Part shown: piece by piece, positions 3,334 to 60,012 of the stretch
Numbering within the stretch: position 1 is the stretch's first letter
Layout of the letters: each line of letters begins with the position of its first letter
NCBI GenBank assembly: GCA_021018995.1
Contig: CM037598.1
Span: forward strand, 47,197,185-47,261,184
Length of the DNA stretch: 64,000 nucleotides
Direction of reading: 5' to 3'
From: Chloranthus sessilifolius
Taxonomy: Eukaryota > Streptophyta > Magnoliopsida > Chloranthales > Chloranthaceae
The notes under the pieces: model-generated
The model's database searches: none
The model's input: only the letters and a program-made list of their open reading frames with translations
What the model was told of the DNA's origin: nothing
Program-made: the position numbers and the translations under genes

Positions 3334-4938
3334 TTGTCCTTTAAAATTCCCAATAAAATTAAAATCAATGTCGTGATACCTGTCCCATGTGAAGCCAACC
3401 CCTTCCTTGTAGAAATACAAGAAGAGGTAGGAGTCACGAGTCTGGATGAGGAAGGCCAAACCGACGAGCACCCCAATGAGCTCCTCAAACAATTTGCCGA
3501 TTTTGAGCATGGCCCTACCCCGATCGTCGAAGAGACAGAGGACGTCAATTTGGGCACCACAGAGGCCCCCAGAATCACCAAAATTGGAACGTCGTTGTCC
3601 CCTATGGAGAGGGAAGGTATGATAGACTTCCTTCGGTCATACCAAGACGTCTTCGCATGGTCGTATGAGGACATGCCTGGTTTGGATACCGATCTGGTTG
3701 AGCATGAGTTGCCATTCTACCCCGATGTTAAGCCGGTGAAATAGAAGCTGAGATGACTCCGACCCGAATGGATGTTGAGGGTGAAGGATGAGGTCATTAA
3801 ACAGTATGACGCGGGTTTCCTCATGGTATCCAAGTACCCGCAGTGGCTAGCCAATATCGTCCCTATACCAAAGAAGGATGGAAAGGTTTGAATGTGTATC
3901 GACTTCCGAAATCTCAACAAGGCAAGCCCTAAGGATGATTTCCCACTACCACACATCGATATCTTGGTCGATAACACTACAAAGCATGGAATGCTCTCAT
4001 TTATGGATGGATTCTCAGGATACAATCAGATAAAGATGGCAGAGGTTGATCATGAGAAGGCGGTGTTCATTACCCCCTGGGGAACCTTCTGCTACAAGGT
4101 AATGCCATTCGGGCTGAAGAATGTTGGGGAAACTTATCAAAGAGCAATGACGGCCCTATTCCACGACATGATGCACCGAGAGATCGAAGTATACGTCGAT
4201 GACATGATTGCCAAATCACCAGAAAGGGAGGACCACTTGATAAACCTGCAGAAGCTGTTTGAGAGGTTGAGAAAATACAGATTGCCGTTGAATCCCCAGA
4301 AGTGCGCCTTCGGCGCTATGTCCGAAAAGTTATTGGGCTTTATTGTCAGTAGGAGAGGGATCGAGGTCGATCCGACCAAGATCAAGGCTATCACTGAGAT
4401 GCCGCCACCATCTACAGAGAAGGAAGTCAGAGGCTTTTTAGGCAGGATCCAGTACATCAGCCGATTCATTACACAGTTAACTCCGATATGCACACCAATC
4501 TTCAAGCTGCTGAAAAAGGTCTCACCGGTTGAATGGAATGATGACTGCCAGGCTGCATTCGACAAGATTAAAGGTTATCTCCTGAAACCTCGGGTATTGG
4601 TACCGCCCGTACCTGATAGACCCCTGATAATGTACTTGTCCACGATTGAGTTTTCCATGGGCTGTGTGTTAGGACAGCATTATGAGACGGGAAGAAGAGA
4701 GCAGGCCATCTATTAACTAAGCAAGAAATTCACTGATTATGAGACGCGCTATTTTCATCTGGAGAAAGCATGCCTGGCGCTCGTTTGGGCTACTCAGAGA
4801 CTTCGACACTACCTGTTATCCCAGGCCGTTCTACTTCTAGCACGGATGGATCCGTTGAAGTACCTATTCGAGAAACCTGCTCTCACTGGCCGAACCGCAC
4901 GTTGGCAACTACTCCTATCCGAGTTTGACATTACTTAT
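3334..4938 (+). pseudogene. Element B reverse transcriptase and first RNase H (5' part)
   Basis: A Ty3/gypsy reverse transcriptase that would copy element RNA into DNA in cytoplasmic particles. Visible motifs in order are DFRNLNKASPKDDFPLP, FMDGFSGYNQI, PFGLKN and the catalytic YVDD at 4192-4203, then LGFIVSRRGIEVDP and the connection region. The first RNase H follows from about 4560 to 4938 and ends at the insertion of A. In-frame stops are TAG 3742-3744, TGA 3889-3891 and TAA 4714-4716. The first two fit single C-to-T changes of CAG and CGA, as expected from deamination of methylated cytosine. Otherwise the frame is continuous for about 1.6 kb and continues exactly at 18930 after A. Confidence 0.92.
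4934..4938. repeat. Target-site duplication of A, left copy (CTTAT)
   Basis: CTTAT lies immediately before the TG of A's 5' LTR and is repeated exactly after the CA of its 3' LTR at 18925-18929. A perfect 5-bp duplication is the normal product of gypsy integrase. Confidence 0.95.
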
Positions 4939-10560: not shown

Positions 10561-10985
10561 TTGAATTCCTAAAAAACTATCTGATTTCAGCTCCAATATT
10601 GTAGTCTCCAGATTATTCATTACCTTTTGAACTGATGTGTGATGCATCAGATTATGCTTTGGAGCTGTCCTTGGGCGAGAAAAGATAAGCTGCCTCATGT
10701 TATAGCTTATTCCAAGAGATCAATGATTGATGCACAACTCAATTACACAACAACCGAGAGAAGGCTTGGCAATTGTTTTTGCTTTAGAAAAATTCAGGTC
10801 ATATGTTTTGGGTTCACAAATAGTGGTGTTCACTGACCACTCGGCTTTAAAATACCTTCTGTCTAAGAAGGACACCAAACCAAGACTCATTAGGTGGATT
10901 CTCTTGTTACAAGAATTTGATCTACAAATTAAAGATAAAAAAGGGGTGGAGAATGTGGTGGCAGATCACCTCTCCAGGATTTTAA
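10561..10985 (+). pseudogene. Element A RNase H
   Basis: RNase H would degrade the RNA strand during reverse transcription. The start ([12 protein letters not shown] near 10625) carries the catalytic Asp. The open frame from 10727 holds AIVFALEKFRSYVLGS, FTDHSALKYLL and [30 protein letters not shown], the usual Athila RNase H end. A frameshift separates the two halves near 10700-10770. Confidence 0.88.
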
Positions 10986-12282: not shown

Positions 12283-12339
12283 TGGCCGAAAACTGTACAT
12301 TATGTTTGTATATCATAGTTTTCTATTTTTTTTTTTTCT

Positions 12340-12665
12340 TTTGCGAGTTTAAATATGCTCAAAATCAAGTCGCAAAGTAATATTTCTCTTTTCGTAAAGT
12401 TCAATTTGCTTTTCGAATAGATCTGAAGCTATAATGAACTACTCGAAAGAGAAGATGTGCTCTTCGAATAGTTGGTACTGAAGCCATTTCTCTTTTCGAA
12501 AAAGTAATTCCGAAGCTAACTCCTTTGCGAAATGATGTTTCTGAAGCTGTTAACTTGTCGAATGGTACTGATGCCATTCACAATTTTAAAAAGGACTCTT
12601 TTGGAACTTTTCGAAAACTTAAAAGCACTCTGCGATATTAACCTTTAGTATATTTAAACCCTTTC
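12340..12665. promoter_or_regulatory. Element A internal CG-motif cluster and TATA before the extra ORF
   Basis: About a dozen CTTTTCGAA / CTCTTCGAATAG / TTGCGAA-type motifs lie between integrase and the extra ORF. They match the cluster in A's own U3. A TATA-like TATATTTAAA follows at 12649-12658, about 310 bp before the extra ORF ATG. The arrangement repeats the order seen in the LTR (motif cluster, TATA, transcript), which suggests an internal promoter. This is inference; no transcript data are available. Confidence 0.5.
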
Positions 12666-12914
12666 GACGGTGGGGTTTTCATTTCAAACTCGCTCCGCAG
12701 AGCGACTCCTCTCACTAAAACCCTACTTCGTTCTTTCTTTGCACGATTTAACAAGTCTACTACCCTTTTTGTAACTAATTGGTTATATCATCTGCATTTT
12801 CAAAAGAGGATTGCCGCTTATAATCTGGAGGATTTCTGCAAAGCAAACAACTTGTTCAAAACAGAAACCCTAAATCTCGATATTTCTTTACCCATTCTCT
12901 CTGGTTATCATATA

Positions 12915-12968
12915 GTAAGTTGTTCTGTGTCGGCATCCATTTTTGGGCATTATTATACATCGATTTAG
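12915..12968 (+). other. Possible short leader intron before A's extra ORF
   Basis: A good donor context (GTAAGTTG) and an acceptor (CGATTTAG) bracket 54 bp that end one base before the ATG at 12970. 54 bp is short for a plant intron, so this is tentative. Confidence 0.25.
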
Positions 12969-12969
12969 G

Positions 12970-15320: not shown

Positions 15321-17080
15321 CTTTCATTGTACTTTTTGGGTTATACAGTTGCAATAGAAAATTCTATTTTGTATACTACTGTGCATTTTTTTCTATCTTC
15401 TTGCCATTATTATTTTAGTTGTTTTTCTTTCTTATATTTTTTCCTCTGTTTTGGACCAGTGTGGACCCTGCTTCCCTTTGGTTTGGGGGTATGGCAGGTA
15501 TGCCAATAAAATAAGTAAGTTAATGCTTCTTGACTTATGATCGAAAAACTTTTGAAAATGAAGTCATTTCACACCTGTTGTTTTGAAAAATGAGGAAGTT
15601 AAAACTTTTTAAAATGAATTTCTACTGTAATTCTAAAGACTTTCATGAAGTAAATGTCAGGAAATTTCCAAAAGAAAATTGATGTTTTAGTAAACCTACA
15701 ATGAAGGAAAACAGTGATGATATACCTCAAGAAGTTGATAGAAAACCACACCCAGTGAGATTCGGGCCTGCTGAAATGTATTCTTTGGAGGTATGAATTG
15801 GCAATTTTTTCTGCTCTAGGGACTGTTTGAACCTGCTAGTTATCACTAGAAGTTACACATATCCAAGTTAAAATTGCTTGACAGCAATCATGATATTAAA
15901 GACATGATGTAGGGCCTTCTTTTGGACAGTTTGAACTTCAAAAAGCCCCACCTTTTGAAACTGCCCTTGATACACACCAATTGAGCTTTATAAATCCAAG
16001 ATTTCTTTGAAACCTCATCAACCTCATTTAGCCTAACCCTCACTCTGAGAATTCAGAAGGTAAAGGAAAGAAAGCTGAAGAAAGGTGAGTTGGGTAACAG
16101 TTTGGTAAAAGAAAAGAAAAATAATTGAAGGCAATGATGTATCAGCAGAAGAAATGTGGCATTCCAGTCAATGATGATTTAAAAAAAAAAAAATAAATAA
16201 ATAAATAAAATAAAAAATCAAAGAAAAAGAGAAGGCATTTCATTGGAAGTTTGAAAAAGAAAGAGAAAAAGATGGCCACTTTGGCTCTGAAAATTCAAAG
16301 AAGAAGATGAAATTGTGCTAAATTGAAGAAGGTGTGTCTATCACCTCCTTACCTTGACTGACTTCTCAATTTTGAACTCCATTCCACCCCTTCATTCTTG
16401 ATAAATTTCACCCATAAGCCACATTACAACCCAAGTTAAAGTCCTTACTAATCAATGATGGATTGAGCTTTCATATGGAGATAAGGATTTGTGTAATCTA
16501 TGGTGAAAAAAGTAGTAAATTCAGAACTGAAAAGCAATGCCTATGCTCCTGCTTACATTCCTATTTGAGGGCTGTAATTGCTCTAGAGCTGTGTGAAATA
16601 GTGTAACCCTCATATTTGCATGGTGAGTGAAAACCCTGGTGAGAGTTGAGTTCGAAATCAAATTATTTGGGGTAACATCAAAACTGAATTTTCAAATAGA
16701 AGGCAAGCTTTTCATTAATTTTTCTTGTAAAAACTTTTTGACACCAACTGAGTGAATGATAACAGAGAATTTTAGTTTTGAATGATGTTTTCTTGAAAAT
16801 CTTCTTACAACTGTTGATCGAGTGTGAATAATCTGATTTGATGAAAGTTTGCTTTAGAATGCATTTGATCTTAAGCGATTTATTGGAGAAGTTTGTGGGT
16901 ACCTCCAGTGAAAACCCTCAGGAGACTTCACTCCTCCACTAGGGATCACCTAGGGGTTTAAAAGGCTTGTTGCATAGGCTAAATGCAACTGTGCTCCCTA
17001 CAAAAGTGGCTCTTTACTTTGTTTTTTGTTTATTATTCTTTTCTTTGCTCAGGGACTAGCAAAGCTTAGGTTTGGGGGTG
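15321..17080 (+). other. Element A 3' noncoding block bracketed by two polypurine tracts
   Basis: No credible ORF. It opens with a PPT-like GGTTTGGGGGTATGGCAGG at 15480 and closes with the real PPT at 17068-17080. The region is homologous to F 39371-41032 and to C 31997-33683 (minus). The most conserved part (about 16881-17010) is nearly unchanged in all three elements. Confidence 0.75.
17068..17080 (+). other. Element A polypurine tract
   Basis: AGGTTTGGGGGTG lies directly before the TG of the 3' LTR, the expected site of plus-strand priming. The same tract occurs in F (41020-41032) and C (31997-32009, minus). Confidence 0.85.
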
Positions 17081-18924
17081 TGTTGACAAGTGAAAAATAC
17101 CATTTTTCACCCCTAAACTTAAGTCTTGATAGAACTTTGAGAGAACTAAATAAGTGTTTTAAGTGCCTATGTTGCAGCTAACAATAAAGACAGGCTTAAC
17201 CATAAAAGCAGCTCAAAAGTGCCAAAAAGATGACAATCCATGTCGTCAAAGGAAGGAAGTGAAGAAACAACCTCACCGTGGAAAAGTCTAAAAGGAAGAG
17301 GCAAAGACCGTAAGAGAAGCAGGAACAATTGAGCAGAGAGAAATGCAATACAGAGTTCTTTTCGCAAAGAACCTGCACGTTTCCTAAAGAACCTGGAACT
17401 CTGCGAAAAGGAATAAAACCTCCAGGCTTAGTTTTTGAAGAGCATCTGAACTCTTCGAAAAGAAGATTGAACTCTGCGAAAAGGAGAAAACACAATTCGA
17501 AGAGGGATTGAACTCTGCGAAAAGAGCTTGAAGCCTGACACTGCGAAAAGGCCCTTAAGCTCTGCGAAAAGGTATTCTGGAGATTCGCAGCTTTAACAAG
17601 GGCAATTCAGTAATCTGTTGCACGCGTCCCAATGTGTTTTAAAACCCAAGGACATTCCGGAAGATTCTGAGCATGAACCAAAGGCATATTCCACCCCATG
17701 TGAACACCCAAAGATGAAATTACTTGGCGGGAACTTCTAGAAGCTCAAACAGATTTTTGAATTTCCTAACAGAATTGATGCCTCCGTTTCCTGATTGGCT
17801 GAACCAGATCAAGCAGTTCTGATTGGCCAGAACAGATCTGGATCCTGGTGCTCGACTCCTATTGGCAGATATGAATTTAACCAACTCTGATTGGTTGATA
17901 CACATCTGAGCTGGACCTGGGGAAAGCTATAAATTGACGAAACATTTGCCCAATTTGGGTATCCAGATTTTGAGTTTCATTTCTAATCCCCCATTTCCCA
18001 GCCAGACAGTTTGTCTGAAATCCCTGTAATAGCTTCACTTTGATTTGCAATTGAGAGCTGTGAGACGTTTCTATAATTCAAAAGAGAGTTGTATTCAAGA
18101 CTACAAATCTGAGAGCTGTTTAAGCTGTGCTCTGTAATTGTAACGGTGGATTTGAAAAGGTTGTTGTAAACCATATTTTCTCAATTGGACTCATGTTAAG
18201 GGTTCCCTCTGATCTCCTTATTGCATTAGACTCCTTTAGATTTACTGTTTTTTATGCAATTTCCCTTGATTCATTAATCTTGGAAGAATTAGTGTTGGTA
18301 ACCTAGTCTCTTACAGCATTTGTAGTGATGTTTCCTGTTCTAAATTGAGGATTTGGATTAAAAACTATTGGATGGTTTGTGGCCATTAAAGTGGAGAGAC
18401 CATAGCCATAAGTGTAAGCCTAATCCTTGAATTAGATTTATCTCTCTTACATCTGTGCTTGTAGCCAGATGAAGATTGGATCACCTCTGCTGAACTGCGG
18501 TATTTCTCATTAGATTTCAAAGACCAAATCAGAGTTAGATATTACTTCTCCATCTTTGTTTCAATCACTCCCCCAACTCGGATCTAGATCATTTAGTTTA
18601 AATTTTCCTTTGTTTTTAGTTTGTTAAACGTGACAAATTCAAACCTCTCATCTTATCAGCTTTCTAGATAGGATAAGAAGCCAGATCTGGTAGCTCAGAT
18701 TTGGAGGTTTATCTTACATTTTAAACAAATTCTTTGTGGATGATCTTTCACTCACTTAGTTTTAAAACTTGCTACAATTGGCCCTGATCTTGCAGGCTAA
18801 TTCTCTTCTAACTGTGCTGATATTTCCTTATTTGTTTATATAGTCTAGAGCCACTGTAATTTAGCAACTATAAATCTATTTTTCAAAACTCACATAAATC
18901 AAGCACACTAAGAAGATACCAACA
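17081..18924 (+). repeat. Element A 3' LTR
   Basis: Begins TGTTGACAAG and ends ACCAACA. It is collinear with the 5' LTR, with a CG-motif cluster at 17398-17575 and a TATA box at 17929-17935. It is 28 bp longer because of short indels (for example near 17770-17815). Confidence 0.95.
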
Positions 18925-18929: not shown

Positions 18930-19717
18930 GTCACCCAGAAGTTGATTAAGGGGCAAGCACTCGCCGATCATCTTGCTGAGAACCCTCTGCCGAACTATGA
19001 GCCTCTAAGGACCGAATTCCTCGATGAAGACATTTTGTTCATGACCGACGAAGATACAGAGGAAACGGAGGAGCCCTGGGTAATGCACTTCGATGAGGCA
19101 TCGCATGTTGAGGGCCAAGGAGTTGGCGCCATTCTTATCTCACCGAAAGGATCCCATATACCCATCTCATCAAATTGAACTTCCCCTGCACCAACAATAT
19201 GGCCGAGTATGAGGCCTGTACAGCTGGTTTACAGGCGGCTCTTGATCTAAATATAACTCACCTTAGGGTCTTTGGAGATTCACAGTTAATTATATGCCAA
19301 ACCAACGGGGATTGGAAGACCAAGGATGAGAAACTGATCCCATACCATGAACATCTAGAGGATCTGATAACTCGCTTTGAGGAAGTCACCTTCTCTTATG
19401 TGCCACGAGCAAGAAATCGGTTTGCTGACGCCCTGGCTACCCTAGCCTCTATGGTTGAGATTCCATATGGAGTGGTGGTGAAGCCGATCATGATAGAGCA
19501 GAGGAGCGAACCGGCTTTCTGTCACCTGATCGAAGGACCTACGGAGATAGAGGATGAACCACCCTGGTTCTCAGACATCAAGAATTTCCTCGTGACCCGA
19601 ACTGTCCCGGAAGGAACATCAAAGGTAGACAAACGCACCATCCAGCGATTGGCAATAAACTACGTCATCTGCGGCGATCTCCTGTATAGACGGTCTCATG
19701 ATAATATTCTGCTCTGA
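18930..19717 (+). pseudogene. Element B second RNase H (archaeal-type position)
   Basis: The frame carries on from 4938 (VTQKLIKGQALADHLAEN) and runs into a second RNase H: WVMHFDEASHVEGQGVGAIL, then NNMAEYEACTAGLQAALDL, then LRVFGDSQLI, then a C-terminal FADALATLAS. These give the usual D-E-D catalytic pattern. A second RNase H after the first is diagnostic of the Tat lineage. The usual Gly after the first Asp is replaced by Glu (FDEAS instead of FDGAS). A one-base frameshift lies near 19170 and a stop (TGA) at 19715-19717, which fits a C-to-T change of CGA. Confidence 0.85.
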
Positions 19718-20799
19718 TGCCTAACCTAGAAAGAAGCGATTGAGATCATGAAGGGGTCTATGGAGCCCACGTCAGCGGTCACATGCTTGCTAAGAAAATT
19801 CTAAGGCAAGGATACTTTTGGACTACTTTGGAGACTGATTGCTGCAAGCACGTACAGAAGTGCTACAAATGCCAAGAGCACTCCAGCCTAATACACGCTC
19901 CGGCCAATGACTTACACAGCATGGCCACCCCTTGGCCATTCGCCACCTGGGGTCTCGACGTCATCGGCAAGATCAATCCTAAGGCTTCCAATGGACATCA
20001 ATTCATCCTCGTCGCTATGGAATACTTTACAAAATGGGTAAAGGCGGCCTCCTATACGAGCATTAAGGCTAGCCATGTTGAGAAGTTCATCAACAACATC
20101 ATTTGCAGATTCAGCGTACCCAAAGATATCATCACTGATAATGGCACTAATTTGGCTAATAGGCACATCCGGGCCTTGTGTGAGCGGTTCAAGATCAAGC
20201 ATCATCGTTCATCCTCGTACAGGCCTCAGACGAATGGAGCAGTAGAGGCAGCCAACAAAACTCTGATCCGCATCCTGGAGAAGATGGTAGTTACTTACAG
20301 AGATTGGAGTGAGCAGTTACCCTTCGCACTTTGGGCCTATAGAACGTCTATCTGCACCGCAACAGGGGCAACACCATTCTCCCTTGTGTATGGGACCGAG
20401 GCCGTGCTACCCGTTGAGGTCGAGGTACCGTCACTCCGTATCCTTTTAGAATCCCATCTACCTGAAGCTGAGAGGGAAAGAGCCCATTTTGAACAGCTAG
20501 ACTTGATTGACGAGAAAAGACTCCTGGCCTTATGCCACACTCAGGTCTATCAGAGGAGAATTGCACGTGCTTACAATAAGCGCGTCCGTGGCCGAGATCT
20601 GAAGGTAGGAGATACTGTACTGAAGAAAATTTTTCCGTCTCTCCACGCCGATCCGAGAGGGAAGTTTAGGCCAAATTGGGAAGGACCCTACGTCGTCCGA
20701 GAGGTTCTGCCAGGATACGCCGTTCGCCTCGCCACCATGGACGGAGACCACTTTCCTGAGCCCATCAACGCTAGATACCTCCATAAGTTCTACTCATAG
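19718..20799 (+). pseudogene. Element B integrase
   Basis: The zinc-binding N-terminus is damaged at 19718-19780 (stop and frameshift), but from 19783 a 338-codon open frame holds the rest. CCKHVQKCYKCQEH carries the zinc cysteines. The catalytic triad is visible as WGLDVIGKI, ITDNGTN and NGAVEAANK (D, D and E all present). The C-terminus (RGRDLKVGDTVLKK, then KFRPNWEGPYVVREVLPGYAV, then NARYLHKFYS) is complete and ends at a normal pol terminus. This is the best preserved enzyme domain in the window. It is still part of a dead polyprotein because of upstream stops. Confidence 0.92.
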
Positions 20800-21864: not shown

Positions 21865-22430
21865 ATCACAAAAGAAAAGAAAATTCCCAAAAAAGATAAT
21901 AGATTTCCCTTTCCCATAAAAAAACCTCACACTGTGGGGGAAGAAAATTCTAAAAAAAGATAATAGATTTCCCTTTCCCATAAAAAAGCCTCACACTGTG
22001 GAGGAGAAAATTCCAAAAAAAGATAATAGATTTCCCTTTCCCATAAAAAGCCTCACACTGTGGAGAAGAAAATTCCAAAAAAGATAATAGATTTCCCTTT
22101 CCCATAAAAAGCCTCACACTGTGGAGGAGAAAATTCCAAAAAAGAAAATAGATTCCCCTTTTCCATAAAAAGCCTCACACTGTGGAGGAGAAAATTCCAA
22201 AAAAGATAATAGACTTCCCTTTCCCATAAAAAGCCTCACACTGTGGAGGAAAAAATTCCAAAAAAGAAAATAGATTTCCCTTTTCCATAAAAAGCCTCAC
22301 ACTGTGAAGGAGAAAATTCTAAAAACAAAAAAAAGAAGAAAATAGATTTCCCTTTTCCATAAAAAAAAAAGGACCCCACTAGGTGAAAGAGAAAATCCCC
22401 ATAAAAAGTCTTACATTGCAGAATTACAAA
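21865..22430 (+). repeat. Tandem repeat, about 60-bp unit, in B 3' region
   Basis: About eight copies of a unit containing GATAATAGATTTCCC, CCATAAAAAGCC and TCACACTGTGGAGGAG follow one another, with decayed copies at the right end (22320-22430). It lies between integrase and the DUF7745-like gene's 3' end. ORFs read through it are artefacts. Confidence 0.9.
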
Positions 22431-22765: not shown

Positions 22766-24174
22766 CTACCATGGAAGCAATTCACTGGCCAAGGGACTCT
22801 GGCCAAAAAGACCCCAATCAAGAACCTCGCTCTTGGCTGTAGCGGCTCTCACCTCCGCAATATCAGCTCTGACCCTTTCTTTCTCCAAAGCCTCGATCAA
22901 AGCCAGCCTCTCTACGGAAAGGGACTCGATCCGGGTCCGAAGCATCGCTTCCTTACATGGCCAGGGCCTTGTCTCCACCACATCTATCGAAGCTGGGCTA
23001 GGAGTAGGTAATTCCTCAGATACCAGCCAACCCTCGTAACCCGGAGAGACGACTCCCCCCTAAACCAAGCTACACATATGTGCCGATTGGCGGGTTTCCC
23101 AGAGGGCAGCTATGCGATCAAGATCACTAAGAGAACCGCGAGAGAATATCAGAGAGCACAAGGGTGGCCTCGCGGTACACGGCACATGCTGAGTATACCC
23201 GAATTGACGGAGCACCCGAGATGGGAAGTAGTATGTGCTGCCAGTCAACCCCAAAAGTGTGATGCCCTCATAATCCCGAGAGCGGACAATCGGAAAGGTG
23301 CCGTCCATCCAGGGAAGTTGCCAGGTCAGCTCTGCATCAGATAGCCACAGGCTTAGTTCCTCGACGCTCCCACCAGGCAGTCTCGAACTCCAGATCAGAA
23401 AACCTCGAGCCACATCCCCTCTAATCAAGAAAAATCTTAGCACAGGCCCCATGATAGCCAAATGCTCTCCTAACCAGATCTGAACAAGGAGCGGGCTCCC
23501 GCTGAGAATCCCAACCTGGCCCGTGGCCACAGCATCCAGGCCTCGATACATCTCCGCCAGGACTAGGTGTACCAATGAGCGACCTCCCTCCAATTCGGTC
23601 AAAACATCACATAGCCCAAGGGAAAAGCTCTCACCCCCAATGAAGAAGAGAACTTCCGACAGCAAATAAAGGGCAAAGGCCTTCACATTGAAGGGATCTC
23701 GATTAGGCAACTTTCGAAGGCTCGGGTCACCGAAAAGTTCTCTCAGGAATTTCACCGAACACCTGGTGGGCCCTCCGGGGAAACATTTCTCGTATCCACC
23801 CTTTTTTAAGCCAAGGACCGCATGGACCGCCTTTGCATACCCCGGTTTGGGCACTACTTTGGCAAGGCCTTGATGCATCTTCAAGCCAGTGATGGAGGCT
23901 AGCTCTTCCAAAGTTGGGTCAGCTCCCTAGACCCAAATTTAAAGGCATGGGCCCTATGGTCCCATGATGCCAAAGCCGCCTGTAGTAGGTTGGGCAACAG
24001 AGGAATAGCGAGGAGAGAGGAAAGGCGGGACAACCCGAGGCCATTCAGAATAGCAAGCTCGCTCTCAGCCAAACTATCATGCCATTTTTGCAAAAAGCTG
24101 GGTCCCGAGTCCAAATAGGGAAGTATACCGGCCCCTGTATAAAAGCTTGGGCCCCCTTTTGAAGGCAGGTCCAT
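22766..24174 (-). pseudogene. Element B antisense gene 1: DUF7745-like protein
   Basis: An intronless gene of about 469 codons on the strand opposite to gag-pol. The N-terminus (from ATG 24174) includes FLQKWHDSLAESELAIL, then SWDHRAHAFKFGSRELTPTLEEL, which fits plant DUF7745 proteins (a PMD-related family found in plant transposons). The middle (VKAFALYLLSEVLFF, VLAEMYRGLDAV, LLVQIWLGEHL, and YYFPSRVLRQFGY) keeps the helical PMD-like pattern. The C-terminus (about 22780-22970) is a predicted coiled coil (RLALIEALEKERVRADIAEV). Lesions are one single-base frameshift near 23920 and one TAG at 23060-23062, probably from CAG. Four-site palindrome array and TATA lie just upstream. DNA binding or a role in silencing escape is inference. 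Confidence 0.72.
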
Positions 24175-24351: not shown

Positions 24352-24515
24352 GGCGTATATATTATATACGCCAAGGCAAATTTTGAACCATTTTTGCCCG
24401 GCGTATATAATATATACGCCCAACCATTTTTACTGAGGATTGGTCAGGCGTATATAATATATACGCCCGGCTATTGATTGCTGAATGTTAGCCTGGCATA
24501 TATAATATATACGCC
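24352..24515. promoter_or_regulatory. Palindrome array 1 of element B (4 sites, 47-48 bp period)
   Basis: Four 21-bp palindromes start at 24352, 24400, 24447 and 24495. Each has arm GGCGTATATA, one central A or T, and the reverse complement of the arm. The first three are perfect; the fourth has one C-G to C-A change. The spacer contains CCATTTTT after the palindrome, as in the LTR copies. The array sits 178-341 bp upstream of the DUF7745-like gene start and 3' of the PMD gene. Confidence 0.92.
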
Positions 24516-24923
24516 TAGTTTAAGCTAGGGCTGGTAAGGCCCCCCCCTCACACGGGTCTATTTTCTTTTCCCAAGGAGGAACGTAGTTTATTTTGGCCCA
24601 CCTTTTCGTCGCGAGAGCGCACATGGGCGGCCATGCCACACACCCATGAGAAACACCCGGGTGGCACGCCGCCCATAGGTCGCATACGAAAAGTCACCTG
24701 CATGACCAATCTCATCACTAGAGAGGTGCCAGTTCATTCCAAGCGAGAAAAAGAGAGAGGAAACCACCAAAGCAAAGAGATAACCAAATAAAACAGTCGC
24801 ATGAACCATGAAAATTATAAAACCATAAAAAAAAGAGACTGTTGTTGTCTAAAGTTATTACATATCTCATATAAATCAAAAGTCTAAATTGTCTCATTGT
24901 GTCCACTTTTTAAGGAAAAAAAA

Positions 24924-27348
24924 CTAGTCCTGGGCAGCCCCCTTCGACTTCTTCCTGCGCCGGCTCGCACTTTGAAAGGTACCGGTCTCCCCCACTCGAG
25001 TCCACGCCTGAGAGATACGGCTAAGCAAGGAGCGCGACTCCTTCTCACGAGCACGCTGCAAAGGCACACCAAAAGTGATCAAATAGAGAAACAGGCAGAA
25101 AGTAAACAAGGAAAATGACTAGGCTGGGCCAGCATTCACTCACCACTTCGGTCTCCCTAAGCCCAACAAGGTTACGGTAGTATTCGGCCTGACTCACTGT
25201 CGACTCATAATCCTAGCCAGTAAGAAAAAGGAGGTGTTAGTCACACAGGCCATCAACATAATTCAAAGGGAAAGAGAACAGAGCAACAAGATAGAGATTA
25301 CCCCAGGAATCAGCTCAGGAGGTGGGACCTGGATAGCTTCAATAGAAATTCGTGCTTTCTCAGCCACGTCGGCACACACGCGTGACAAAAAGGCATCATC
25401 CAGGCGTTTGAAGGTCCCCTGGACCTTGACGGGCGAGCTACCAGAAGCACCGGCACCAGAAGGGTCAGAGGGTCCAACACCTGAAGCACCAGCCCCGGAA
25501 GGATCGGAGGGTCCAGCACCTGTTGCATCATAGGGAACGACCTCCTCTTCCCCCTCATCTGAGCCGCCGCCCTGCTCAAACTGTAGAGAGAAACATTTTA
25601 TCATTAAGGGCGACAGGTCAATCAAAGTAACCACATGAAAGCTACTGAATGAAAGGAGAGAAGGGGCATTACCTGAGATCGCGGCCCACCAAAAGCTAAA
25701 AAGTTAGCACCGGGCACGAAGCGAGGCAGCAAGAAATGATAGGGCAGGGAGTCGTACCAAGACTGATACCCCCCGGGCAGGAGAAGGTCATCGATAGGAA
25801 CCCCATGGTGAAGAAAGTGAGCAGTGAGCTCATCAATGGAGCCCTCTGGGGCCAACACATCGGCAGGAGGAGCTTGGGGCACGGCAAAGAGAGGGCGATA
25901 CTGATGAACCGCTCTCTCCCCTAAATAGTAGGCCCTAGTCCAGGACCCGTAGAGAAAGATAATACGACGGTCCAACAAAAGACGAGAGGGACCCACTGAG
26001 GCCAAATTCCAGAAGGGAGATCCTATGTAAGGGTCGAGGATGACCTGCAAAAGAAGAGAAAATTGAAAGGGGGTGCACACATTTGGTCAGAACCCCTAGC
26101 ACACAGGAGCTGAGCTGTCAAATTTACAAATAGAGAATTGTTTTACCTGCTCTGGGATCAACAGGTCAAACTTAGAGTGCAGTCCTAACTCCAAATGCTT
26201 CATACCTACGTCCCGATGGCAGCCCACGTGCCAGTTACTCATGAGGGGGAACGTAGCAATGTCAGACTGAAGCAGAGGGCGACCCGGTTGAAAGTGAAGG
26301 TACCCCCAGACCTGAGAAAGCAAGCAGCTGAAAACAGGTATGCTATAAAGGAAAATTGGATAAACTAAAAACAAAAGATAAAATACCTCGATGGCAGGCC
26401 AGAAACCCACAATGGAGCTAGACTCCCCAAGAACGGCCGGCTTTAGGCTGGACATGAGTACGGCATAGCCAGCACCACCCCAATCGACTCGATGCACGAT
26501 CTCCCAGTTCACCATCAGGCTGAGCAGGGACAAGGAGACTCGCCCTCCGCTGGTGTTGGAGAGGAGAGTCTTGCCCCGAAGGAATAGTGAGGAGATGAGG
26601 GCCAGCATAAGTGTGCGCGCATGCTCAATGAAAATGTCCATGTCAGGCTACCCCTGATCCACCAACTCATTAGGCCCAAACTGATCAACCAAGCAGGATT
26701 GCTTGACCTCCGAGCCCCGAACATTCCCTGAGGACGGGTAGGCCCCTAGCAGTTGAATCACCTCCTCCCTACCCGGTGTGCGGGTAGGTACCACTGGCAC
26801 CCCTCCGTCGGACCCGGTGATCATAGGATCAGATCAGCCGGTGTGAAGGCCATCTCTGCCACGGCCATGTGGAATGTCATCGTCTCGGGGCAAAAATGCT
26901 CTATCAGTGCCTTTAAATAGCCCGTATCAGCCCTTACAGCAGGGCACAAAATGAAGTCCCCAAAACCGGCATTAGTGAGTAGGTCCTTCACCACTGGGGG
27001 AAGGTAAAGCACAAGACGCCGGAGGTCAAACCAACAGCCTCGAAACATAATGTGCGGTAGGGGTTGCAAGCAGAAGGCATCAATCAGATAGGGGCAGGGA
27101 GGTATAATGAGGGCATAAAAGGAAAACAAAAGCGGAAAGGAGGAGGGGGCCCGTTTGTTTACCTGACCAACGATCCCGAAGTTGGACATATGGGTGTGCT
27201 GGCAGTAGAGGAGGCCGGTGTGGGCGGCCTCGCCTTGCATCTCATACCAAGGCTGGGAGGAGCGCTGAGACACAATGAACTGTTCCCCACGGGGGCCATA
27301 GGCCATCTCCGGCCCTTCTTGCCGATCATGCCCTTCGTCACCAGACAT
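24924..27348 (-). pseudogene. Element B antisense gene 2: spliced plant-mobile-domain (PMD) gene
   Basis: A multi-exon gene on the minus strand. Exons by coordinate are 27163-27349 (ATG 27348), 26387-27063, 26147-26311, 25673-26044, 25302-25580, 25144-25212 and 24924-25055 (stop TAG 24924-24926). The intervening introns are 75-102 bp, all phase 0, with GT-AG ends. The exception is the first coding intron, whose acceptor reads AA at 27064-27065. The protein (about 625 residues) has the PMD signature (ALIEHFCPETMTFHMAVAEM, then HARTLMLALISSLFL, then FWPAIE|VWGYLHF), a Gly/Ser/Pro-rich repeat segment in exon 5, and a basic C-terminus (SRRRKKSKG). Exon 2 alone is broken: a frameshift near 26825 and TAG at 26648-26650. 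PMD proteins (MAIN/MAIL family) are plant nuclear proteins linked to silencing; transposon copies are known. Confidence 0.8.
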
Positions 27349-27349
27349 C

Positions 27350-28094
27350 CTGAAAATATGAGATGCATCGGCATATGAGAAGGTTGCCAACAAAAAGGGA
27401 AGAAAGAAAAAATATATATATACACTAATCCCAAAAAAATAACAAAAAAAACAACCATGTGTATATACTGATCCGAACCAAAAAAGGTGTGTGTGTGTAC
27501 CAAAAAAACAAAAAAACCCATGTATATATACTGATCCGAACCAAAAAAGGTGTGTGTGTGTACTAAAAACAAAAAAAAAACCATGTGTATATACTGATCC
27601 AAACCAAAAAAGGTGTGTGTGTGTACCAAAAACCAAAAGAAAAAAAAACCATGTGTATATACTGATCCAAACAAAAAAAAATAGGTGTGTGTGTGTACTA
27701 AAAACCAAAACAAAAAAACCCCATGTGTATATATCAATCCAAAAAAGAGATGCATGTGTAGACTAAAAACAAACAAAAAACAAACCATGTGTGTGTAGGC
27801 ACCAATCCATCAAATAAGATGCACTAATCCATCGAAAACAAAAAAGAAAAAGAAAATAGGATGAGATGAATAAATGATAGATAAAAAAAAAAAAAAATAG
27901 GCCTAAGGAAAACAACAAAAACAAAACCAAGAGAAAAGGAACATAGGCATCACATATGTTTAAATGAAAATGGAAAAAAAAAAAAAGGAAAAAGAAAACA
28001 TTTCACCATAAAAGAAAAAAAGAGAGAAAAAGAAAAGCATCAAACAATAATATTATCAAAATGCAAAGGAAAAGTAAGGGAAGGTAATGGTTAC
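27350..28094 (-). other. Probable 5' leader intron of the PMD gene
   Basis: Donor TTGAAG|GTAACC at 28094 and acceptor ATATTTTCAG at 27350, one base before the ATG. The 745-bp intron holds the minisatellite at 27430-27800 and otherwise A-rich low-complexity sequence. Confidence 0.55.
27430..27800. repeat. Minisatellite, about 58-bp unit, with embedded GT runs
   Basis: About six copies of a unit with CCATGTGTATATACTGATCC, an A-rich run, and GGTGTGTGTGTG. It lies in the predicted leader intron of the PMD gene. ORFs here encode only repeats of the type HTHLF..GSVYTHG and are artefacts. Confidence 0.9.
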
Positions 28095-28315
28095 CTTCAA
28101 TGGGGGAGAAAAAAACGAATAGCGGCGGAGGATAAGCGCCTTACGATCCACACCCGCGACCGCCGGTAATAGAACTCAAGCCAAATCAAATGAGAAAAAA
28201 ACCTAAGGGGTTGTCCCGGACTCAAGAAGAAAGGAGGGAGGAAGAGAGAATTTGAAAAGGGGGGCCCCTTTTGTGCTCGGGCTCGGGCAGTTTCGTAACT
28301 GCCAGATTTTAGACG

Positions 28316-28384
28316 GGCGTATATAATATATACGCCCGACCATTTTTTGCCAGATTTTGGTCAGGCGTATATATTATATACGCC
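28316..28384. promoter_or_regulatory. Palindrome array 2 of element B (2 sites, 48 bp apart)
   Basis: Perfect 21-bp palindromes start at 28316 and 28364 (arm GGCGTATATA). The first extends to 25 bp (CGGGCG...CGCCCG). They lie 220-290 bp upstream of the PMD leader exon end, where that gene's promoter is expected. Confidence 0.9.
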
Positions 28385-30342
28385 CGACCAAAAATGGCAG
28401 TTTTTAAACTGCCCGACCTCCCTTTTTCGATTTTAAGGCCCAACGGCCCCCTTGTATGCTATGGACCTCGATCCGGACCCCCCTTCGAGGCCCACATGTC
28501 GTCGGCCATGATGCACGCATCCCCAAATGACCCTTCGAGTTTCCTTCGATTGGCCCAAAGGGACCGTGCTACAATAAACGGATCTAGATCCGTAGGCGCC
28601 CACCTAATGCGCCCACAAAATCAAAAAAAGAGAATAAAAAAAAATAATGAAAAGAAAAAAATATAATATATACAACGCTGGTTCTCAAAAGAGCGTCGCA
28701 ACGATTGTTTGCCCCATTCCGAGAGCCGTGTTAAATCAATTCAGAATGATCGGGTTCACCCAAAAGCTCTCGAACCCCATTTCGAGGGACATTTGTACAC
28801 CTTACGTGAATAATTTGCCCATCTCCGATCCTTTGCTCCTCTGAGTCCCCGAAGAGTCAAGGCCTGATCCGACAGGCAAAACCAAGAACCCATCACCGGA
28901 ATGCACACGTCCCTAAGGTATAACAATATGGCAAGTTGATTCGCTTAAGGATACGTGTAAAAATAATGGCAGTTTGAGCATGCCCAGGGTCTCCATCTGA
29001 CTTGAAAAAAGAAAGAGAAAAGAGAAGAAGAAAAAAAAAGAAGAAAGAAAAGGAGAAGAAATAACAACTTATTACTGCTTAGTGAAAACCCTGAGTGGGT
29101 TGACCCCACCTTCCGGCATTCACTCTGGTCATCCACCTTCGGATTGATATTGACCAAGAGTGCCCCCGACTTCAGACCATCCAAAAAGTCTATTGTCAGT
29201 CGAAACTGACCCGTCAAAAATGAAATTACAACCAACCAAACTATGTGCGAACATACAGACCAAAGGGCTCTTTTCCCTTTTTATTTCCTTTTACACAGGC
29301 TTAAAACCTGTATAGGCACAGTGTCCCTGTTGAATGTACGCACTTGCGTCTAGGTATCCGCAGGATGGTCGTTGTCCTTGTAAATTGTACCTTAGGGTCG
29401 AGGCTTCTGTTCGCGCCTATTTGCTGCTTATCGCCCCTGCTGGGTGTTTGTCTGTGCATAGTTAGTAGGATGTGATTTCATTAGGGACGAAGGCTAGAAA
29501 TTAACCATCTCTTTCGAGGGATGTTTGGTTCTAGCCTGATCTTTTTAGCTTTGTCCCGAGTTAAGGGATTCCGGTTCATGTGAATCAGGGGCACCTCACC
29601 ACTGGAACGAGCACATCCCCCAGGTGCACCTATCCCTGACAGAGCGCACGCATTCTTAAAGCGTATCAATTGACATTTGCTCCACTTAAAGAGTTGTACA
29701 AAAATAAAGTAGTCAGAGATCATCGAGCTCTGCTTAGAGGCCTCGAAACAAAAGAAAATCCAGAAAATGACACAAAAAATTACTCAGAAAATGGGTATGC
29801 ATTCCCAAGAGGTGTTGCGACATCAATATTCGCTCCACTCGGATCAATCATGCTAAAGCAACCTCGAGGTTGATGGGTTCACCCAGAAACTTTGAGCCTT
29901 ACCTAGGTAAGGGCACCCGTGCCCAATCCAATGGAGCTGTCAATATTCCATTGGGTTCGACACAGTTTGAAGGCCTTCGCTTTGTATGCTTCGCATCAAT
30001 TCCGAAGCATAGATCGATCATCCTGTTTCGTGGAGCTGTCTGGTTCAGATTAATACTCAAACATCACAAATCTATAATTTCCCTCAGGAACTGGACGATA
30101 TCCCGGCTAGCGGGCTTACACTTCTTGTAATCATCGCAGTTATGCCCAGTAATGTCGCAATGCGCTTAGGGACTGTTAGCTTTGAGGTACGGACGATATC
30201 CCAAAATGAGAGGGCTTACGAACACTCACCATCACCATGGATGTTTGAGAATTGAGTTGAACCGGGCGGACCCATCAAATGTGCCTTGGACCTCTTCGGA
30301 TGTCTCTTGTCTTTGGCATCCGATCATTAGTGATCGAATACC
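28385..30342 (+). other. Element B terminal noncoding spacer
   Basis: No ORF above background, no tRNA-like fold noticed. 28980-29060 is a purine-rich tract. Text related to GATCGGGTTCACCCAAAA (28749) reappears near 29872 (GATGGGTTCACCCAGAAA), a weak internal repeat. Otherwise nothing recognisable. Confidence 0.5.
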
Positions 30343-30356
30343 AAAAGAGGGGCATC
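30343..30356 (+). other. Element B polypurine tract
   Basis: AAAAGAGGGGCATC immediately before the LTR TG; the purine run AAAAGAGGGG is the expected plus-strand primer site. Confidence 0.75.
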
Positions 30357-30745
30357 TGTAAACACCCAAATTTGGCCCAAGGCCCGATCAATCTGTACTT
30401 CGGGAGAGATGTCCCCCTGTGCCTCAGATGGCACCCCCCTGAACCCTTAGGAACCTACCTAGACCAGTAGGAATCACCCTAAGACCTTTAGAGCCATTCC
30501 CCCAATCCTTAGAAGTCACCCCTGCACCCTAGAATCCCTTCCCAGACCTAACTTAAACCCTGCTGGTGGTTGATGGGAGGAGAGCTACAAAATTTCACAT
30601 AGACTAGTACCATGGATGATCCATATACCATTGGAAAGAGGACTTCTTCAGCTTTCCAACGAGCCAAAAATCACCCAATTTGGAGCTACGGTTCAAAAGT
30701 TATGGCCGTTTTAAGTTTCACATAAAATCATAGGACTTTTACTCA

Positions 30746-30966
30746 AGCGTAGATATTACATACGCCCAACCATTTTTACCCCATATTAGTCAGGCGTATA
30801 TATTATATATGCCTGCCTATTTTGAGGAAAATTTAGCCGGGTGTATATAATATATACGCCCAGTATAGGTGGGACCCACCACGGGCTTCATCTTCTCAAA
30901 ACTCCCCTGATTTTGGTGAAAATTACTGTTCCTAAACTGGGCGTATATAATATATATATACACGAC
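30746..30966. promoter_or_regulatory. Palindrome array 3 of element B (U3, 4 sites)
   Basis: Sites start at 30746, 30793, 30840 and 30940: steps of 47, 47 and 100 bp. Several carry single C-to-T or G-to-A changes at the CG ends (decay in methylated DNA); the last is disrupted on its right arm. The first site is 497 bp upstream of the TATA box, against 499 bp in element E. Confidence 0.9.
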
Positions 30967-31242
30967 TTAGCTCTGATAACTATCATCAGTAGCTCAAATT
31001 TCCTCCATCTAGTTTGACCCTTTGACCATCCCCTTGGTTGAGGTGGGTGTCTTGAGATTGGTTGCACCCCGTTTGAGCTTATTGGCAACCCTTAAGTCAC
31101 CCATGGTCTCACCCCATCATCCGCCATTGAAACCAGTTTCCCAAAACCCTAGGACCTTGAAAACCCAAAAAACCTTAGATGGGGGATTACCTAATTGCTA
31201 AACCAATTAGCTCTTAAGTAAGCCCCTAACCCATCCCTTCTC

Positions 31243-31250
31243 TATAAATA
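31243..31250 (+). promoter_or_regulatory. Element B LTR TATA box
   Basis: TATAAATA followed by GGGAGGCC and a pyrimidine-rich start region; the equivalent box in element E is at 56487-56494. Confidence 0.7.
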
Positions 31251-31953
31251 GGGAGGCCTCCCTCTTCCTTAAGGGTTAGAAAAAATTGGAGGTTAAGGAT
31301 TTGGAGCTCAAGAGAGAACCCTAGTGAGAGAAAATGCACTCATTTTTCAGAATTCCAGCAAGCTTGGTTCATCTTTTCCAATTCATTTCAACCATTAGAT
31401 TACTCCCTTTAGCTAAAACCTAGCCTCTAGCTTCACTCTACACCCCCTATTTTATTGAATCCTAGCATTAGAACCCATTTTCACACCATTTAGGCCATCG
31501 GAAACACGCCAAAGCGAAGATCTTCCACGGTGCAACAAGGGCCCGTGAGCTCCGGCTCACCTCTCTCTTCCTCTACATTCTTGGTGTCTCCTCCGTCCAA
31601 GGATTCAAGCTGTTGTGCCGCCGAAATTTTGGTTTGGCTCAAAGCTTGATAGGACCGTATTGCCTTCGGGCAAGGGGAAACTCCGCCCTTTTTATTTTTA
31701 TTTTGGCCATAGATAGAGACCGCTACGTGCGGGTTGATCGGGTGCCTAAACCCTTCCCGATCGATAACCGAAGCCCCTACCCTAGAGCCTTTAGCAAAGA
31801 CCGGTAAATCAGAGTCATATTTAGCACTTCGGTGCTCAAAATATCGATTTGAAGGTTTCCCAGGTCAACAAAAGCTCCGGGTGGCGACTCTACATTTTCA
31901 TTAAAAGGCGTGCGCATCGCCGCGATGGATTCGAGAGGATCCACGGTCGCACA

Positions 31954-55610: not shown

Positions 55611-55987
55611 TGTAGACACCCAAATTTAGCCCAAGGCCCGATCGAAACAAATTTCGAGTGAGGTGCATTTTTGAGCTTTTGATGGCATGTATAAAACTAT
55701 TAGGAACCTTCCTAAACTCTTAGGAACCTTCCCGAACCCTTAGGAATCAACCCTAACCTTCCCAAACCTATTAGAACCCATTCCTGGACTAGTTTCAAAC
55801 CCTCCCGAGTAGTGGTTAGAAAGAGGGGTTCCAAAATTTACACAGACCTCTTTAGGAGCTGAGTTATATACCATTCGAAAGATGACTTCTCCAGCTTTCT
55901 AACAAGCCAAAAATCACCTCAATCGGAATTATATATCAAACGTTATGACCATTTGAAAATTGGGTTATTTTGGAGGGATTTTTGCCT

Positions 55988-56203
55988 GGCACAACTAATA
56001 GTTGCACCAAGCCATTTTCCCTCAGAATTTGCCTGGCGCAACTAATAGTTGCACCAAGCCTTTTTCCCCCTAAAATGGCCTGGTACAATGAATAGTTACG
56101 CCAGGTATACATAGGTCCCCCCACCCCTCGCGGAGCCAACTTCCAGGCTACTGTACAGAACTATTTTACTGTGCATTTGCCTGGCCCAACTAATAGTTGT
56201 GCC
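55988..56203. promoter_or_regulatory. Palindrome array 4 (element E U3, 4 sites)
   Basis: Sites start at 55988, 56035, 56082 and 56183 (steps 47, 47, 101). Consensus arm GGCGCAACTA, central A, then its reverse complement. Individual sites carry one to three changes. Spacers keep a CCATTTT segment after the first site, as in B. The layout relative to LTR start and TATA box matches B within about 12 bp. Confidence 0.9.
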
Positions 56204-56486
56204 AGGCATATGAACAGTAACTGAGCGTTTTTACCTCAAATTTTGAAGCTAGGGTTTGAATTGTTGACCACCTCAGCCCTTGGGGTTTGTTTTGATAGCT
56301 TTGCTGCACCTTTTTAACACCTATTTGCAACCCACAAGTGATCTAAACCACTAACCCATCATCCACCATTAAAGACCATCTTCATACTTCTCTAAACCCT
56401 TGAAACCCTAGGAAACCTTCGATGCTAGATTACCTAATTTATAACCTTGATTAGTATCTAAATACTCTCCTAATGCACCCTTTTCC

Positions 56487-56494
56487 TATAAATA
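56487..56494 (+). promoter_or_regulatory. Element E LTR TATA box
   Basis: TATAAATA, followed by a C-rich tract and TTTAAGGGTTGAG, which aligns with B's CTTAAGGGTTAGA after its TATA. Confidence 0.7.
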
Positions 56495-57041
56495 GCACCC
56501 CCCTCCCCTTTGTTTAAGGGTTGAGAATTTATACTTAAGAGAGAAAGAGCTTAAAGTGAGAAGATCCTTCTCCCTTTGGAGCACACTTCCCATACAAAAA
56601 TCAAAATTCTAAACCTCTTCCCCACCCTTGTTTTTCATGAAAAACCTCTAGGTTAGGTGTGTTCTATCCTAGCACCCTCCCTCTACCTCTTAACTATCTC
56701 TCTTAAAGAGTTAGAACCCATTCTCAAGCTTTACAAGCCATCAAGAACTCATCAAAAGTGAGCCACTCAAGGCTCTCCTATGGTGCTACAAGGGCCCAAG
56801 GGCTCCGGCTCTCCCCTTTCTTCTCCTATCTCTTTTTTGCTCTTCTCATCCTCTCATTTGTGCTGTAATGCCATCGAATTTTCGGCAGGAACGGAGGGGC
56901 ACAAATAGAATTCTAAGCCCTTTTGGACAAGAAGAATCCATTTTCTTTTCTTTTACTTTATTTTTGTTTTGGCCATTAGTAGAGACCGTGTTAAGCTGGT
57001 TGATCGGGTGCATAACACCTTCCCGATCAATAACCGAAGCC

Positions 57042-57046
57042 CCTAC
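57042..57046. repeat. Target-site duplication of G, left copy (CCTAC)
   Basis: Same 5 bp occur at 58855-58859. Three extra bases (GGT) lie between this copy and the presumed LTR end. Confidence 0.6.
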
Positions 57047-57049
57047 GGT

Positions 57050-58854
57050 TGTTGCTTCTTAGTGTGCTTGATTTATGTGTGTTTTGAAAACAGATTTATA
57101 GCTGCTAAATTACAGTGGCTCTAGACTAAATAAAATAAAGAAATATCAGCACACTTAGAAGAGAATTAGCCTGCAAGATCAGGGCCAATTGTAGCAAGTT
57201 TTAAAAGTAAGTGAGTGAAAGATCGTCCACAGAGAATTTGTCTAAAATGTAAGATAAACCTCCAGATCTGGCTTCTAATCCTATCTAGAAAACTGATAAG
57301 ATGAGAGGTTTGAATTTGTCACGTTTAACTAACTAAAAACAAAGAAAAATTTAAACTAAATGATCCAGATCCGAGTTAGGGGAATGATTGAAACAAAGAT
57401 GGAGAAGTAATATCTAAATCTGATTTGGTCTTTGAAATCTAATGAGAATAACTGCAGCTCAACAGAAGTGATCCAATCTTCATCTGGCTACAAGCATAGA
57501 TGTAAGAGAGATAAATCTAATTCAAGGATTAGGCTTACACTTATGGCTATGGTCTGTCCACTTTAATGGCCACAAACCATCCAATAGTCTTTAATCCAAA
57601 TCCTCAATTCAGAACAAGAAACATCACTACAAATGCTGTAAGAAACTAGGTTACCAATACTAATTCTCACAGGATTAATGAATCAAGGGAAATTGCATGC
57701 AAAAAAATGAATCTAAAGGAGTCTAATGTACTGAGGAGATCAGAGGGAACCCTTGACATGAGTCCAATGGAGAATGCATAGTTTACAGCAACCTTTTAAA
57801 ATTCATCCTTACAACTTACAGAGCACGGCTTAATGACTCTCGGTTTGCGTCTTGGATGCAAACTCTCCTTTGAGTTACAGCAGATCTCACGACTCTCAAA
57901 TGCAAGTACAAAGTAGGCTATTATGTGATTGCATAAGTTGCCGGGAAATGGGGGATTAGAAATGAAACTCAAAATCTGGATGCCCTAATTGGGCAAATGC
58001 TTCGTCTATTTATAGCTTTCCCCAGGTCCAGCTCAGATGTGTATCAACCAATCAGAGGTTCTCAGATCTGTATTGACCAATGGTAGTCGAGCATGGGGAT
58101 CCAGATCTGTTCTGGCTAATCAGAATTCCTTGATCTGGTTCAGCCAATCAGGTGAGCAAGGCATCAATTCTGTTATGCATTTTGAAAGTTTGTTAGAGTT
58201 TCTAGAAGTTCCCGCCAAGTTATTCCCTCTCTAGGTGCTCACGTGGGGTGGAATATTCCTTCGCTTCATGCTTAGAACCCTCTGGAATGTCCCTAGGTTT
58301 TAAAATGGGTGCCTTGTTAAAGCTGCGAATCTCCAGAATGCCTCTTCGCACAGCTTAGGGGCCTTTTCGCAAAGTGTTGTGACTCCTGAAGCTCTTTTCG
58401 TAATGTTTTGGTTCTGTTCGAATTGTGTTTTCTTCTTTTCGCAAAGTTCAATCCTCTCTTCGAACAGTTCAGATGCTCTTCGAATGCTACGCCTGGAGTT
58501 TTATTCCTTTTCGCAGAGTTTCAGGTTCTTTGCGAACAATTCAGGTTCTTTGCGAAAAGTACTCTGTAGTGCATTTTTCTGTTCGAATTGCTCCATACTT
58601 CTTTTCTGGGTTGAGACCACGTCTTTGCCTCTTCAATTCAGACCTTTCAACAGCTAGTGAGGTTGTTTCTTCTTCTTCTTCCTTTGGATTGACATGGAAT
58701 GTCATCTTTTTGTCACTTTTGAGCTACTTTCAAGGTTATGCCTGACTTTATTATTAGCTGTAAAACAAACACTTAAAACACTTATTTAGTTCTCTCAAGG
58801 GTCTATCAAGGCCCAGATTAAGGGGTAAAATATGGTATTTTCCAGTGCTCAACA
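57050..58854 (-). repeat. Solo LTR G (element A family)
   Basis: 1805 bp on the minus strand, homologous over its whole length to A's LTRs, including TATA (58006-58015) and the CG-motif cluster (58320-58600). No internal sequence remains, so it formed by LTR-LTR recombination. It sits in E's LTR and so is younger than E. It is more diverged from A's LTRs than these are from each other. Confidence 0.9.
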
Positions 58855-59030
58855 CCTACCCAAGAGCCTTTGGTGTGGACTGGATTCAGAGTCATATTTT
58901 TAGCACTTCGGTACTCATAAAAATTATATAGGTATCGTGGGACACCAAAAGCTCCGGGTGGCGACTTTATATTTTTTTGCAAGCGAGCGCATTGCCGTGA
59001 CGGGATCGTCAAAAATTCCACGGTTGCACA

Positions 59031-59849: not shown

Positions 59850-60012
59850 AGCGCAAGTATTAGTTGTGCCAGTGTAAAAAATTGGAATTTATAATTGGCG
59901 CAACTAATAGTTGTGCTAGCTTTAAAATCCAAGTTTTTACCTTGGCGCAACTAATAGTTGCGGCAGTGTAAAAATGTGCCCCTAGAACCTGGGCGCATGT
60001 ATTAGTTGCACC
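59850..60012. promoter_or_regulatory. Palindrome array 5 (element E leader, 4 sites)
   Basis: Sites start at 59850, 59897, 59944 and 59992 (steps 47, 47, 48). Arms are close to GGCGCAACTA; each site has one to three changes. Located about 0.8 kb after the primer site and 0.5 kb before gag. Confidence 0.9.

Follow-up and report, generated by a model that had tools for sequence, protein, structure and literature searches.

A 64 kb window of the Chloranthus sessilifolius genome (contig CM037598.1, positions 47,197,185–47,261,184 of assembly GCA_021018995.1) contains one copy each of two families of long terminal repeat (LTR) retrotransposon, elements B and D, in which 21-bp palindromes recur at steps of 47–48 bp. 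The five arrays (B1–B3 and D1–D2; Table 1) are real and non-random and are probably functional. The reading that fits them best, to which a probability of roughly 0.5 is assigned, is that they act as operators at which a dimeric protein binds DNA, probably one encoded by the elements themselves with the products of the antisense PMD genes as candidates, and that they carry a family-specific code. Operators for a dimeric protein had already been proposed for element B in an initial annotation of the window; this proposal is still the best-fitting one and is backed by element D, which keeps the lattice with a different core, while the binding, the identity of the protein and any counteraction of silencing remain inferred.

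The initial annotation described ten copies of the B palindrome, which has the form GGCG-TATATA-n-TATATA-CGCC (21 bp). A search of the whole window for GGCGTATATANTATATACGCC, allowing up to three mismatches, returned nine matches, each coinciding with one of these copies; 100 shuffles gave no match. The palindrome is perfect at 24352, 24400, 24447, 28316 and 28364, carries one mismatch at 24495, 30793 and 30840 and carries three at 30746. At the tenth site (30940) the left arm alone is preserved, with six of ten pairs. The spacing was as claimed (48/47/48, 48 and 47/47/100 bp), and the accompanying equation with 4.5 turns of B-DNA is correct as arithmetic (47.25/10.5) but is not evidence. Throughout the 64 kb, the 8-base half-sites GGCGTATA and their complement TATACGCC occur only in the B arrays. 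A search for triplets of 21-bp palindromes at 46–49 bp steps, with 20 block shuffles as a control, returned B1, B3 and D2 together with one triplet at 54731, which was taken as a chance occurrence because six of the 20 block shuffles also gave one triplet. B2 is absent from this result because it has only two sites, and D1 was missed by the filter because its third site is weak.

Element D was missed in the initial annotation and came to light through a tandem repeat with a 47-bp unit in another part of the window. Its palindrome has the form GGCGCAACTANTAGTTGCGCC (GGCG-CAACTA-n-TAGTTG-CGCC), found with one to three mismatches at seven of the eight D sites and in none of 100 shuffles; the eighth (56082) is weaker, with five of ten pairs. 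When the LTR of B is aligned with the part of the D LTR to the left of an insert, 821 of 1410 aligned positions are identical (58%). Each of the four palindromes in the B U3 then faces one in D, with steps of 47/47/100 bp in B and 47/47/101 bp in D and with 303 and 304 bp, respectively, between the start of the last U3 site and the TATA box. Agreement at the four aligned site pairs is 22/32 at the outer positions, 9/32 at the middle positions and 15/16 at the inner positions, indicating that B and D have different palindrome middles, in the left and the right arm alike, with the spacing kept. The diagnostic middle positions of each half-site are T (20/20), T (19/20) and A (19/20) in B, and C (15/16), A (15/16) and C (13/16) in D. 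This retention of the lattice and of the distance to the TATA box around a different palindromic core is best fitted by the operator reading, which element D supports.

The palindromes are also better preserved than their surroundings. Between the B arrays they are 88–99% identical (B1–B3 280/320, B1–B2 158/160 and B2–B3 142/160), whereas the 14-nucleotide flanks are 41–47% identical (184/448, 106/224 and 97/224, respectively); the corresponding values for D1 against D2 are 254/320 and 160/448. Within B1 the sites agree at 117/120 palindrome positions and 69/168 flank positions. The 18 sites carry 29 substitutions relative to their family consensus, of which 14 are CpG transitions, at four of the 20 positions; with the three weakest sites omitted, ten of 17 substitutions are CpG transitions. 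This pattern looks like the deamination of methylated cytosines in silenced copies. The observed/expected CpG ratio is nevertheless high in B1 (1.29) and B2 (1.75), compared with 0.40 in the window; it is 0.95 in B3 and 0.67 in D2 and is low in D1 (0.31). The G+C fraction is only 0.38–0.48.

Two of the B arrays lie upstream of the PMD genes and one lies in U3, positions which may correspond to promoters. B1 starts 178 bp upstream of the gene 1 ATG, with CTTATAAC on the gene 1 strand 27 bp downstream of the nearest B1 site, and the gene 2 ATG follows what reads as a plausible 5' untranslated region (UTR) intron. In the mechanism proposed here, of which the promoters, the protein binding, the dimer, the identity of the protein and the sign of the regulation are inferred, a dimeric sequence-specific DNA-binding protein would read promoter-proximal dyad sites consisting of a constant outer GGCG...CGCC, a family-specific middle (TATA in B and CAAC in D) and an inner TA-W-TA that is again constant. 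The sites, many of which follow an A/T-rich run and a GNC-like step, would be held at roughly half-integral helical steps (47–48 and 100–101 bp). The protein is most likely to be encoded by the element, the antisense PMD genes being the first, unproven candidates, and would act at U3 and at the promoters from which it is itself expressed, setting the expression of the element through auto-activation or auto-repression or by shielding it from silencing. As the B and D families separated, the site middles would have changed in concert, so that each family acquired a recognition code of its own. A broader and less probable version is that Tat elements encode a dimeric PMD regulator that reads phased palindromes at all of their promoters and that families avoid cross-talk by swapping the site middle and the protein together. 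If true, this would provide a first biochemical role for PMD and a hint as to how MAIN/MAIL1, PMD proteins that act in silencing in the host, originally came to recognize their targets.

Several observations weigh against operators read by an element-encoded protein. Only two families are represented, each by one copy. B3, D1 and D2 are decayed, their own sites agreeing at only 95/120, 96/120 and 97/120 palindrome positions (flanks 54/168, 87/168 and 66/168), and both antisense genes of B are broken in this copy by frame changes and stops. D2 sits in the 5' leader and not at a recognizable promoter, and any antisense genes of D lie beyond the window. The strong folding of all five arrays is also predicted if the palindromes act as hairpins. 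The flanks show a dyad symmetry of 0.456, compared with a mean of 0.267 in shuffled flanks (2000 shuffles, largest value 0.365), so that each site is part of a longer imperfect dyad. For the gene 1 open reading frame (ORF), a search of the PDB by sequence identified no solved relative, and the AlphaFold single-sequence model is unusable (mean predicted local distance difference test score 34.2).

The alternative that survives best, although an unlikely one, is that the arrays are operators for a host transcription factor, a plant dimer (for example a stress-responsive one) that drives transcription of the LTR and of the accessory genes, an idea also put forward for the Sirevirus RM boxes. The outer GGCG...CGCC and inner TA-W-TA are common to both families, and mainly stress-related plant motifs are reported for the similar arrangement in Sireviruses (PMC2829016). 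However, each family has a nearly fixed site middle that differs from that of the other family in one genome, which a single conserved factor does not predict.

Slightly less probable again is a role in secondary structure, either as hairpins in the genomic RNA (for packaging, dimerization, export or the production of small interfering RNA, siRNA) or through extrusion from DNA. All five arrays fold as single strands far better than shuffles (z of −8.0, −13.2, −5.2, −6.9 and −9.5, the strongest being B2), the flanks and spacers are partly symmetric as well and a full-length genomic RNA would hold all of the arrays, U3 and leader included. Rows of palindromes fold by construction, however, and hairpins need neither a fixed 47/48 bp step nor placement upstream of each antisense gene. 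On the sense strand, the mismatched pairs comprise nine G.T, 11 A.C and eight others, small numbers that give no preference for wobble pairs, and no compensated pair is found among the 29 substitutions, the one pair changed on both sides (in 56183) being uncompensated. Both results are what sites in DNA, rather than in RNA, would lead one to expect.

It is improbable that the arrays are a functionless mutational by-product, generated and homogenized by tandem duplication and quasi-palindrome correction during reverse transcription. The arrays are partly related by duplication, as the similarity of the B1 and B3 spacers indicates, but the flanks of the B arrays have diverged far beyond the 21-mers, no copy carries a private compensated change, and both families have retained the spacing and the TATA distance while drifting apart in the aligned LTR parts to the extent given above. 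An insertion hotspot was rejected, as the case cited for it concerns, in its accessible part, short palindromes at target sites (PMC6911290) and no insertion is seen in the arrays.

In the accessible portions of the literature cited here, the closest parallel found is that of the Sirevirus RM boxes (PMC2829016), which the initial annotation did not name; the parallel it drew with the VANC proteins stands as a functional likeness only, the Sirevirus palindromes being the closer case. RM boxes are palindromic, clustered in the LTR upstream of the TATA box and family-specific with a shared signature, which is CGG-CCG in 12 of 13 elements, and 77 of the 79 copies in the linker precede ENV (PMC2829016). 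No fixed period is described for them in the accessible text (PMC2829016), whereas B and D keep a strict 47–48 bp step. Palindromes upstream of the TATA box in the LTR, family-specific versions of a shared signature, diverged flanks and the presence of CpG are common to the RM boxes and the B and D arrays; extra copies upstream of an additional gene are common to the RM boxes and the B arrays. RM boxes also form CpG islands; the CpG ratios of the B and D arrays given above come with a G+C fraction of 0.38–0.48. The core is CGG-CCG in RM boxes but GGCG...CGCC in B and D, and the additional gene is ENV in the former, whereas B has antisense PMD genes. Sireviruses are Ty1/copia elements, whereas B is a Ty3/gypsy element with RVT_3 and the domain order reverse transcriptase, RNase H, RVT_3 and integrase; in copia elements the integrase precedes the reverse transcriptase. 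The palindromes of maize Sirevirus LTRs have reportedly been linked to siRNA in a later paper.

VANC acts in VANDAL elements (MULEs), which are DNA transposons, whereas B and D are LTR retrotransposons. As a functional model the VANC targets are the best: they are short, lie in noncoding repeats of their own element, differ between related families, change together and are bound by an element-encoded protein (PMC5735166, PMC10398659); the motif changes between sister families, as the B and D cores do. The VANC21 motif YAGTATTAY is short and is not described as palindromic in the accessible parts of these papers, whereas the B and D sites are palindromic, and binding and demethylation are demonstrated for VANC (PMC5735166, PMC10398659), whereas binding at the B and D arrays is putative.

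Antisense ORFs between pol and the 3' LTR are suspected regulators in Retand and Grande (PMC11963269, PMC7264820); Grande gene23 has its own promoter, and an antisense accessory product is nuclear in related elements (PMC7264820). TRP28 is present in 97% of Retand clusters (PMC11963269), whereas B has PMD; TRP28 gave no match among the B ORFs scanned between POL and the 3' LTR, a scan from which ORF 27159–27809 (−) fell outside. Palindromic operator arrays, which B and D carry, are not described for Retand or Grande in the accessible portions of these papers (PMC11963269, PMC7264820). The occurrence of PMD in Gypsy elements was already known (PMC9289625, PMC5418596); the function of the domain is described as unknown (PMC9289625) and the role of antisense accessory genes in large plant Ty3/gypsy elements as open (PMC7264820). 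Literature searches confined to open-licence papers gave no account of such phased arrays for Tat elements. The exact B palindrome has no match in viral contigs and the exact D palindrome none in viral contigs or in genome contigs, collections that are viral or viral and prokaryotic and say little about plants. The palindrome-box design itself is thus already known, and what is new is the occurrence of strictly phased, core-swapping palindrome arrays in Ty3/gypsy elements, which would show a Sirevirus-like design in another superfamily. A family-specific phased site at likely promoters also offers a concrete ligand to test for the antisense PMD proteins, with two sister families with swapped cores as a built-in specificity control.

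Table 1. Features of elements B and D in the window (positions counted from its first nucleotide).
Feature	Position	Strand	Remarks
Element B reverse transcriptase and start of first RNase H	3892..4716	+	Upstream of family-A insertion
3' portion of element B pol, with RVT_3 (second RNase H) and integrase	19112..20799	+	Pfam matches
Antisense gene 1 (PMD/DUF7745-like)	22766..24174	-	ATG 24174
Array B1	24352..24515		Upstream of gene 1; four palindromes at 24352/24400/24447/24495, steps 48/47/48
Antisense gene 2 (PMD, matches below Pfam cut-off)	24924..27348	-	ATG 27348; in several pieces
Array B2	28316..28384		Upstream of gene 2; pair of palindromes at a step of 48
Polypurine stretch AAAAGAGGGG	30343-30352		Shortly before B 3' LTR
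Element B 3' LTR (TG...CA)	30357..31953	+	Ends read by eye
Array B3	30746..30960		30746/30793/30840/30940, steps 47/47/100; U3 of B 3' LTR
TATAAATA in B 3' LTR	31243
Element D 5' LTR	55611..59030	+	Ends read by eye; interrupted at about 57055-58854
Array D1	55988..56203		55988/56035/56082 (weak)/56183, steps 47/47/101; D U3; core CAACTA-n-TAGTTG
TATAAATA in D 5' LTR	56487
Primer-binding-site-like TGGCGACTCTGCTGGGGA	from 59033		Just after D 5' LTR
Array D2	59850..60012		59850/59897/59944/59992, steps 47/47/48; D 5' leader

Element B is classed as a Ty3/gypsy LTR retrotransposon of the Tat type by its domain content (Pfam matches) and not by a reverse-transcriptase tree, and D is joined to B by LTR similarity only. 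Dual RNase H, given as a Tat trait in the accessible part of PMC9289625, is present in B, in which RVT_3 sits between the first RNase H and the integrase (E-values of 9.3e-9 for RT_RNaseH_2, 5.3e-21 for RVT_3 and 1.3e-10 for the integrase core), as is the Tat trait of antisense additional ORFs located between pol and the 3' LTR. A nested family-A insertion splits B at about 4939–18924, with LTRs at about 4939–6754 and 17081–18924 that are 94% identical to each other. Since no second B LTR was found within the window, the 5' LTR of B should lie to its left. A 61-bp tandem repeat of approximately seven copies (21878–22325) lies between the B integrase and gene 1. At gathering thresholds Rfam gave a single match in the window, away from all palindrome arrays: snoR71 (RF00097, 57.1 bits) on the minus strand at 7402–7507, within the gag region of retrotransposon A, which is either a stretch of element A resembling a small nucleolar RNA or a sign that the Rfam family was built on transposon copies.

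The antisense genes of B had been labelled as a DUF7745-like gene and a PMD gene, a distinction that did not hold, both being of the PMD type. The gene 1 ORF (23060–23926, −) matches PMD with 48.2 bits (cut-off 34.9) and DUF7745 with 25.2 bits, which does not reach the cut-off of 26, and DUF7745 was accordingly dropped as the main label. Two pieces of gene 2 match PMD below the Pfam cut-off, with 22.4 bits (26096–26647, E-value 8.1e-5) and 21.6 bits (26821–27762, E-value 1.4e-4). BLASTP of gene 1 against two pieces of gene 2 gave nothing significant. Gene 1 is broken by a frame change within 23899–23926 and a stop codon at 23060–23062; in the same frame beyond the stop a charged, heptad-like stretch can be read, a putative coiled coil by eye, as the basic run RRRKKSKG close to the C-terminus of gene 2 is a putative import signal. 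No homologue of the gene 1 ORF was found at E ≤ 0.001 among 4956 candidates in a protein database, and hence no alignment was built; a weak PDB match to an antibody (E 0.067) was rejected as unrelated. A 63-bp repeat array (27441–27792) lies inside what appears to be the gene 2 intron in the 5' UTR, and B2 lies inside a larger imperfect inverted repeat (about 28283–28420) with GGCAGTT...AACTGCC hairpins on both sides.

The insert in the D 5' LTR is an antisense family-A LTR (57055–58854), apparently a solo LTR, which shares 82–83% identity with the family-A LTRs starting at about 4939 and 17081. D2 is located between the primer-binding-site-like sequence and a part resembling the B coding region (439–605 in B against 63462–63631 in D). 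The stretch after D2 may be gag, as judged by eye; neither of the two D ORFs scanned gave a gag match in Pfam. Long low-complexity repeats with CCAAGGGCCCATGGCCC-like units occupy 61339–62056 in D, downstream of the leader array.

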